A DNA stretch of 34,498 nt from Gemmatimonadaceae bacterium (GTDB lineage: Bacteria; Gemmatimonadota; Gemmatimonadetes; Gemmatimonadales; Gemmatimonadaceae), in assembly GCA_019694735.1 (NCBI GenBank), contig JAIBBJ010000146.1:1-34498 (forward strand). Direction: 5' to 3'. Shown piece after piece: positions 14,328 to 15,901 of this stretch. Below the pieces are notes generated by a model that did no database searches, was not told where the DNA came from, and saw only the letters and a list, made by a program, of their open reading frames with translations. Both the position numbers and the translations under genes were made by a program. Position 1 is the first letter of the stretch, and the number at the start of each line of letters is the position of its first letter.

Positions 14328-14660
14328 TTACTTGAGGTTCTTCGAGACGAGCTTGGTCATGTCGAACATCGAGACCTGGCCCTTGCCGCCGAAGACGACC
14401 TTGAGCTTGTCGTCGGCGTTGATCATGCGGCGGTTCTTCTTGTCCTGGAGGCCGTTCTTCTTGATGTAGGCCCAGAGCTTCTTGGTGAGCTCGGTGCGCG
14501 GGAGCGGCGCGGCGCCGACGACGGCGGCGAGCTTCTCGTTCGGGGTCACCGGCTTCATGAACGCGGCGTTCGGCTTGCGCTTCGCGGCCTTCTTCTTCGG
14601 CGCGGCCTTCTTGGTCGCCTTCTTCGCCGGCTTCTTCGCAGCCTTCTTCTTCGCAGCCAT
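14328..14660 (-). CDS. SWIB/MDM2 domain protein with lysine-rich tail
   Basis: The 110 aa protein has an extremely basic N-terminus (residues 1-30, alternating Lys/Ala/Pro like histone H1 tails). A SWIB domain follows at residues ~33-110 (FMKPVTPNEKLAAVVG, ELTKKLWAYIKKNGLQDKKNRRMI, LKVVFGGKGQVSMFDMTKLVSKNL). SWIB domains are best known from eukaryotic chromatin-remodelling complexes and also occur in chlamydiae and some other bacteria; the bacterial role is not settled. The Lys tail suggests DNA binding or nucleoid association (inference). The start at 14660 is favoured because GAGGAG lies 9 nt upstream; the ATG at 14669 directly abuts that site. It is transcribed alone, with a hairpin terminator downstream and an unusual repeat region upstream. 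Confidence 0.9.
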   Translation of the reverse strand: MAAKKKAAKKPAKKATKKAAPKKKAAKRKPNAAFMKPVTPNEKLAAVVGAAPLPRTELTKKLWAYIKKNGLQDKKNRRMINADDKLKVVFGGKGQVSMFDMTKLVSKNLK

Positions 14661-14736: not shown

Positions 14737-14764
14737 AAAGTAAGAGGGTTCCCCTCTGGCGCAA
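14737..14764 (-). promoter_or_regulatory. Candidate promoter of the SWIB gene with a palindrome in the spacer
   Basis: On the minus strand, TTGCGC (14764-14759) and TACTTT (14742-14737) are 16 bp apart. They lie 77 bp before the ATG. The spacer coincides with the palindrome AGAGGG-TTC-CCCTCT (14743-14757, given on the plus strand), so a protein bound there would block RNA polymerase. The matches to consensus are only partial. Confidence 0.35.
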
Positions 14765-14781
14765 TAGGGCGCGCCAGAGGG
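14752..14781. repeat. Inverted repeat (11-bp arms) upstream of the SWIB gene
   Basis: CCCTCTGGCGC (14752-14762) and its exact complement GCGCCAGAGGG (14771-14781) flank an 8-nt loop. Both arms contain the CCCTCTGG motif that recurs through this intergenic region. Confidence 0.75.
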
Positions 14782-14916
14782 AAAACAGGGATTCCCCCTC
14801 TGGGACGGGGGGGCGGGGGGCATCGGCGGGGGGAATTCTCCCTCTGGGACGGGCCGCTCCCCCCTCGGGAACGCGGCGCGCGGCGCGGCGCCGCCGGTCG
14901 AATTCCCCTCTGGGAA
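14752..14916. repeat. Array of CCCTCTGG motifs on an exact 22-bp phase
   Basis: This fills most of the 332-bp gene-free stretch 14661-14992. CCCTCTGG occurs at 14752, 14796, 14840 and 14906. Its complement CCAGAGGG occurs at 14774. A one-base-deleted copy (CCCTCGGG) is at 14862. All start positions differ by multiples of 22 bp; the 14818 and 14884 slots are empty. Three copies are preceded by ATTC or AATTC and most are followed by GGA. The copy at 14902-14917 is a perfect palindrome, ATTCCC-CTCT-GGGAAT. The 22-bp unit is not a multiple of three, so this is not coding repeat. Two helical turns per unit would put all sites on one DNA face. The function is unknown. Confidence 0.7.
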
Positions 14917-14992
14917 TCGCCTCGCGCGGGCCCGCGTCCCGCCCGTGCGCGCGCGTTTCCGCGCCCGTGCGCACGCCGCGGGCGCGCGCCCG

Positions 14993-15901
14993 TCACGCCG
15001 TGAGGAACCCCTCGAGCAGCGCGATCATCCGCGCGTCGTGCGGGTCGGCGCTCACGTCGTCCTCGACGACGCTCTCGCGCGCCGCGGGGGTCTCCAGCAC
15101 GAGCGGGATGCCCGCCGTGCGCGGGTCGGCGAGGAGCCAGCGGAACGGCTCGGCACCGATCATCCCCTCGCCGAGGAGGGCGTGGCGATCCTTGTTGCTC
15201 GCGAACGGGTGCTGGCTGTCGTTCAGGTGGAAGAACGCCGGCGCCTCCCCCGTCGCGCGCACGAACGCGTCGATCGTCGCGCGCTGCGCGTCGGCCGACG
15301 TGTGGATGTCGTGCCCGGCGGCGAAGAGGTGGCAGGTGTCGAGCCCGTAGCCCGTGCGGTGCCGCCACTCGGGCGGGACCTGCGCGAGCATCGTCGCGAT
15401 CTCCTCCGGGGTGCGGCCCATGGTGCGGCCGGCGCCGGCGGTGTTCTCGATCAGCACGCGCGTGCCGCTCCCCTCGGGGACCTGCTCCAGCGCGTGGCGG
15501 ATGGCCAGCCCCACGCGCACGGCGGCGTCGGTGGGGTCCGAGTCGCCCGCCGAGCCGGGGTGGAAGCAGCAGCCCCACGCGCCGAGGACGCTGGAGCGCT
15601 CGAGTTCCTTGGCGAGGCCGGCGCGGGCGCGGAGCGCCTTCGGCTCCTCGGGGGAGGCGGTGTTGAGCACGTAGGCCGCGTGCACGAGCACGTGCTGCCG
15701 CGCGATGCCAGCGGCGGCGAGCGCGGCGTGCACCTTGGCGGCCTTGTCGGGCTTGAGGGTGACCTTCTCGTTGTAGTACGTGGGCGGCGCGGTGAAGACC
15801 TGCAGTGCGCGGGCGCCGGCGGCGGCGGCGCGCTGCACGGCGAGCGGGAGCCCGCCGTCGTCGGCCGGGTGCACGCCGAGGATGCGATGCGGCACGGTCA
15901 T
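14993..15901 (-). CDS. nfo: Deoxyribonuclease IV (AP endonuclease, Nfo family)
   Basis: The 302 aa TIM-barrel enzyme cuts DNA 5' of abasic sites in base excision repair and binds three zinc ions. Family segments are visible: ILGVHPADDGGLPLAVQRAA at the start, ALQVFTAPP, VLVHAAYVLNTAS, FHPGSAG, VLIENTAGAG, GYGLDTCHLFAAGHDI, FFHLNDSQHPFASNKDRH and HALLGEGMIG, ending in IPLVLETP. The ligand His, Glu and Asp residues in these motifs are retained. The ATG at 15901 overlaps the stop of the response-regulator gene (ATGA). Usual length is about 280-300 aa, so it is complete. Coupling to a two-component-type gene is unusual for this repair enzyme. Confidence 0.92.
   Translation of the reverse strand: MTVPHRILGVHPADDGGLPLAVQRAAAAGARALQVFTAPPTYYNEKVTLKPDKAAKVHAALAAAGIARQHVLVHAAYVLNTASPEEPKALRARAGLAKELERSSVLGAWGCCFHPGSAGDSDPTDAAVRVGLAIRHALEQVPEGSGTRVLIENTAGAGRTMGRTPEEIATMLAQVPPEWRHRTGYGLDTCHLFAAGHDIHTSADAQRATIDAFVRATGEAPAFFHLNDSQHPFASNKDRHALLGEGMIGAEPFRWLLADPRTAGIPLVLETPAARESVVEDDVSADPHDARMIALLEGFLTA

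Follow-up and report, generated by a model that had tools for sequence, protein, structure and literature searches.

The region upstream of the gene for a small SWIB-domain protein (swib) in this Gemmatimonadaceae genome carries a short motif repeated at a regular spacing, and the question that this locus raises is whether the repeats are binding sites that control the gene and, if so, which protein binds them. The window, i.e., the whole stretch of 34,498 nucleotides analyzed, corresponds to contig C66 in a draft genome of 3.52 Mb. The swib gene lies between an nfo-like gene on one side and a signal peptidase gene on the other, and its product is likely a chromosome-packing protein; a SWIB match is present in 164 of 179 family genomes. 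The genes and promoter elements are as follows:

14331 to 14660, minus strand: swib, coding for a 110-aa protein with a Lys/Ala-rich N-terminal tail and a SWIB/MDM2 domain (Pfam PF02201, E 9.9e-27, 93 bits)
14737 to 14742, minus strand: -10 hexamer of the swib promoter, TACTTT; columns +22, +23, +26, and +27 from the -35 T hardly vary among 102 promoters from 25 genera
14759 to 14767, minus strand: extended -35 element of the swib promoter, CTATTGCGC (CTA then TTGCGC), found with at most two mismatches in 102 of 104 promoters
14993 to 15901, minus strand: endonuclease IV-like (Nfo) gene, the upstream neighbor (PF01261, E 2.1e-39)

The swib promoter is conserved in 25 genera as CTATTGCG-(about 14)-TTACTTT, and it is visible in a column count made without reference to the motif, together with T/C-rich columns and then GGGGAAAA columns at about -30 to -16. 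The extended -35 CTATTGCG is almost invariant among the 102 family promoters of these genera, often with TTTCC in front of it, and its CTA lies outside the usual sigma-70 -35 box. One member of the genus, G015, carries two extra swib copies (G015:C1:535554 and C5:34220) in addition to the orthologue.

A 22-bp lattice from 14752 to 14913 extends into this promoter and holds five exact copies of CCCTCTGG, at 14752 (+), 14774 (-), 14796 (+), 14840 (+), and 14906 (+), together with one variant; the slots at 14818 and 14884 are empty. No other exact copy occurs in the 34.5-kb window (shuffle mean, 1.34), and when five starts are placed at random in 155 bp, they fit a single lattice of some period from 15 to 40 with a frequency of 2.75e-5; chance clustering is ruled out by the shuffles and by this frequency. 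In the 3.5-Mb genome there are 85 copies of the octamer versus 98 of the reversed word, so that the octamer is not enriched genome-wide and the anomaly is the cluster itself. The phased 22-bp motif reported in the initial annotation is thus real, with all positions given correctly. The site at 14862, which had been described as lacking one base, is indeed a variant, but it carries one substitution in register (CCCTCGGG) and no deletion. The predicted site is a 15-bp imperfect palindrome, TTTTC-N5-GAAAA, or about TTTTC-AGAGG-GAAAA, and its copies, named by position relative to the -35 T, are listed with the half-site adjacent to them:

14741 to 14748, plus strand: TAAGAGGG half-site, 11 bp from the first site, not conserved
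14748 to 14762, minus strand: site +9 (center 14755), in the promoter spacer, exact CCAGAGGG, score 11/15
14771 to 14785, plus strand: site -14 (center 14778), inverted relative to the gene, score 12/15
14792 to 14806, minus strand: site -35 (center 14799), score 13/15
14836 to 14850, minus strand: site -79 (center 14843), score 13/15
14858 to 14872, minus strand: site -101 (center 14865), degenerate CCCTCGGG, score 11/15
14902 to 14916, minus strand: site -145 (center 14909), TTCCCAGAGGGGAA, score 14/15, the only perfect TTCCCAGAGGGGAA in the genome

The TAAGAGGG half-site had been proposed as a half-turn partner completing a palindrome; it does occur here, but the CCCTCT half of it (gene strand) is seen in only 1 of 14 anchored genus promoters and, since no other promoter of the genus has it, it is probably incidental. 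The slot of site +9 is also filled, at +10, in all 10 promoters of genus g13.

Orthologous loci were taken from Gemmatimonas and other Gemmatimonadota MAGs, with upstream regions from the family genomes, and promoters were anchored on the -35 TTG, which was possible for 102 of 104 (G174 and G033 were dropped; a stricter rule anchored 23 of 104). Sites were called at a match of at least 12/15 to TTYYCAKAGGGRAAA with at most one mismatch in the core, in the range of -165 to +2 from the -35 T. The 102 family promoters contain 145 sites within 165 bp upstream of the -35 versus 3 in reversed sequence, with at least one site in 78 promoters and at least two in 49, although these counts are partly circular in that this family also supplied the consensus, whereas the test on other phyla described below is not circular. 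The other 24 have no site at score 12 and include genus members G003, G012, G015, and G016. Both the number and the place of the sites vary between promoters, and what is kept is the phase, one helical turn. Collapsing to distinct positions per genus, which does not fully remove between-genus ancestry from the phase statistic, leaves 69 sites with a period of 10.9 bp and a power of 44.9, a value reached by none of 2,000 random sets (99.9% quantile, 11.4). The collapsed gaps between neighbors are all 21 to 22, 32, 43 to 45, 54, 66 to 67, 76 to 77, or 88 bp, near multiples of 10.9. The 22-bp period first described is therefore the commonest gap but is part of this finer lattice, and the proposal of protein sites on one face of the helix, kept upstream of orthologues, is borne out by phase and conservation in the family promoters.

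The phase is fixed to the promoter, as measured from the -35 T at swib, at the upstream sites of the gyrase genes, and in the Betaproteobacteria. The slots used differ by lineage (e.g., -23/-45, -12/+10, or, in this genome, -14/-35/-79/-101/-145), and different slots in the same phase point to functional sites that turn over while their phase is constrained, and not to one array that was copied. Judged by these sequence comparisons, the array is functional, neither chance nor a duplication relic. A decayed 22-bp repeat, from local duplication or a minisatellite, would fit two 22-mers that lie 44 bp apart and are 91% identical, but the core alone repeats, one site is inverted, relatives use different slots that keep to this phase, and the same site occurs at the unlinked gyrase genes; this origin is scarcely credible. 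Neither the whole-unit repeat nor the inherited positions expected of a tandem duplication relic or minisatellite were found. Very improbable, too, is intrinsic curvature arising from phased A-tracts with no specific protein: GGGAAAA runs do lie on the helical phase in several genera (in a listing with some loci wrongly oriented), but most Gemmatimonas sites have no A-tracts and keep CAGAGGG. The array is probably an operator of phased sites for a sequence-specific DNA-binding protein, controlling swib and a small gyrase regulon.

The specificity expected of such an operator can be read from whole genomes. A scan of 179 genomes for two sites whose starts are 11 to 40 bp apart, at any distance in that range, returned 25 pairs versus none in the reversed control, and 24 of them are within about 450 bp upstream of swib, the exception being in G067. 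The gap is exactly 22 bp in 20 pairs (the rest are 21, 32, 32, 30, and 15 bp), and 10 of these 20 are from genus g13, where the second site is in the promoter spacer. A strict search for single sites gave 66 matches versus 1 in the control, with 44 at swib and 4 at gyrB; the remaining matches are at 3 tiny Lys-rich genes, at 8 places beside tRNA, tmRNA, or integrase genes, and at 7 that look unrelated. Genome-wide scatter and the state of orthologous upstream regions had been named beforehand as the checks that could refute the initial annotation, and it withstood both.

Two groups of the strict matches away from swib have features of their own. The tiny Lys-rich genes MAAKKKAAKKKAAPKKKAAKKK and MAAKKKAKKKAKKK of genus g20 (L278 and L281, start 1942; L280, 1867) resemble a SWIB tail without its domain, and a perfect 15-bp site precedes their putative -35 by 110 or 188 bp. 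Eight of the 22 non-swib strict sites adjoin tRNA/tmRNA 3' ends or tyrosine-integrase genes (L297, L310 to L313, L315, L316, and L319), as if the site had a role in island integration or its control.

The consensus learned from the family was also applied to 400 bp upstream of 72 swib loci of other phyla. A site is present in 34 of the 72 versus 1 in reversed sequence, and the site thus follows the swib gene across lineages. For 71 of these loci the density is 1.98 sites per kb upstream versus 0.158 elsewhere, where 21 of the 51 sites lie no more than 100 bp after gene starts that were probably set too early. The groups with a site at swib are Opitutae, Betaproteobacteria, Bdellovibrio, and one Bacteroidetes MAG, and several Opitutae have two sites 22 bp apart. 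The Betaproteobacterial phase was computed for 13 upstream sites at 12 loci with a clear TTGACA (promoter score of at least 13.5): 11 are within 100 bp, at -11/-12, -22/-23, -33, and -44 (power 10.2 at 10.9 bp), and two, at -132 and -150, lie well away from the promoter; three sites located downstream in these loci (+97, +103, and +107), loci with poorer anchors, including the Massilia-type -32, -57, -71, and -81, and all Opitutae were left out. In L143, L152, L155, L180, and other Betaproteobacterial swib promoters, TTGACA-N17 is followed by an unusual -10-like CATCTT/CATTCT.

Within the genus, the site, unnoticed at these genes in the initial annotation, also occurs in the 200 bp upstream of the gyrase genes, in 12 of 17 regions for gyrB and 11 of 14 for gyrA, versus none in the reversed control, and the rest of the same loci (103 kb in all) has only two further sites. 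A TTYYCAGAGGGRRA scan of 17 genus genomes gave 16 matches (control, 2), of which 7 are at gyrB, 3 at gyrA, and 2 at swib; the 4 others are 2 before rplK, 1 near atp genes, and 1 near a phosphoglucomutase-like gene, names that come from a reading of the translations, and the rplK sites overlap the likely ribosome-binding sequence. Relative to the -35 T, gyrB has sites at -23/-24 (7), -12/-13 (4), and +11 (1), and gyrA has sites at -13/-14 (3), +11 (1), +46 (2), and +69 (5). The upstream and spacer positions, which make up most gyr sites, are slots used at swib; the gyrA sites at +46 and +69 fit the swib phase poorly, and all 23 gyr sites together have a power at 10.9 bp of only 2.9. The copies in this genome are at C50:33602-33615 for gyrB and at C106:3809-3822 for gyrA, the latter stopping directly upstream of the start codon.

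These positions suggest how the array may work. Evolutionary gain and loss of sites would be confined to positions a whole number of turns (10.9 bp each; usually two) away from the other sites and the -35, a spacing that would place bound dimers on one face of the DNA, where they could contact each other and RNA polymerase; from this phasing we infer that binding at the array is cooperative. The array would control swib, and within the genus gyrB and, in part, gyrA would be controlled by single copies at corresponding positions, such that the three genes may form a small DNA-packing and supercoiling regulon. As to the sign of this control, the positions give repression or autorepression about an even chance, make activation rather unlikely, and leave a mixed or architectural effect less likely still. 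Negative (homeostatic) control is favored because the promoter spacer itself carries sites (+9 to +11), as does the stretch downstream of the start of gyrA, and, combined with cooperative upstream sites, it would account for most positions. A lone upstream site at a fixed distance from the -35 would suggest contact with RNA polymerase, and there activation is possible.

The protein that binds could be SWIB itself, which is plausible because the site accompanies swib across phyla. That SWIB binds the array as a nucleoid protein regulating its own gene, with gyrA and gyrB as further targets, is a tentative reading, with the site upstream of swib in several phyla and tandem arrays virtually exclusive to swib; binding by the gene product is the simplest reason for a cis site to stay with its gene from phylum to phylum. 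SWIB is not known as a classical helix-turn-helix (HTH) protein, which counts against it, as do G013 (100% complete) and G004 (88% complete), where gyrB retains TTTTCAGAGGGAAAA and gyrA also has a site. No SWIB gene was found in either by protein or PF02201 profile search, and the loss of sites elsewhere that would be expected when swib is lost is not seen, with the gyr sites retained. These two are small-genome MAGs of genus g1 in which the close nfo orthologue is also absent and a distant paralogue remains (38 to 39% identity); the joint absence of this orthologue and swib indicates that a single deletion removed both or that both fall in an assembly gap.

The solved chain nearest to the SWIB protein is yeast UAF30 (E 1.7e-12), for which a role in contacting promoter DNA is suggested in the available part of one report (PMC9020658). 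A fusion of SWIB to topoisomerase I in Chlamydia (SWIB-TopA of C. trachomatis), as given in the portion of that work consulted (PMC12445093), counts for SWIB as the binder; the 1,920 chromatin immunoprecipitation (ChIP) peaks of the Waddlia SWIB protein (Wcw_0377), binding judged genome-wide in the accessible text (PMC6426960), count against it. Because of the MAGs that have gyr sites and no SWIB, and the genome-wide Waddlia ChIP, SWIB itself is given somewhat less than an even chance of being the binder, and another regulator is reasonably likely. In its specific form, with an HTH dimer or a Fis-like architectural protein binding and swib, gyrA, and gyrB as its targets, the latter reading comes close to an even chance: a 15-bp palindrome is typical of a dimer, the gyr sites persist without swib, and extra sites occur beside tRNA/tmRNA genes and integrases, but the regulator must be common to several phyla with the same motif, and no candidate protein emerged. 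The most far-reaching proposal, that bacterial SWIB is a sequence-specific cooperative binder of phased TTTTC-N5-GAAAA that regulates its own gene across several phyla and gyrA/gyrB in Gemmatimonas, through an array that could sense twist, is on balance doubtful. Its last element follows from phase, in that binding that depends on sites in phase could let the array sense DNA twist and link the supply of a nucleoid protein to supercoiling.

Several known systems share parts of this arrangement. Fis of Escherichia coli is an autoregulated nucleoid protein that also acts on gyrA and gyrB, and the array is similar in having several sites upstream of a nucleoid-type protein gene and a link to gyrase, but it has no Fis-type motif and follows a 10.9-bp lattice with variable occupancy. 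ArgR and NrdR bind pairs of palindromic boxes (ARG boxes and NrdR boxes) whole helical turns apart near promoters; palindromic boxes at whole-turn distances next to promoters are likewise found here, whereas the box sequence is different, there are up to 5 or 6 boxes over about 160 bp, and the targets concern DNA topology. At CRP class I promoters, phased activator sites work from several positions one turn apart, as the positions here are, but sites of the present type also occupy the promoter spacer and, in the case of gyrA, positions beyond the start. The SWIB proteins of Chlamydiae (Wcw_0377, PMC6426960; SWIB-TopA, PMC12445093) have in common the SWIB domain, chromosome-wide association with DNA, and a topoisomerase link, whereas an operator, a motif, and autoregulation are unmentioned in the accessible parts of these reports. 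A literature search found neither a description of this array nor a described regulator of swib or gyrase genes in this phylum.

With this array, bacterial SWIB genes have a first candidate operator code, one that ties them to gyrase. If confirmed, it would make the role of bacterial SWIB directly testable and would provide a natural series of promoters in which the number and place of sites vary and the helical phase is held.
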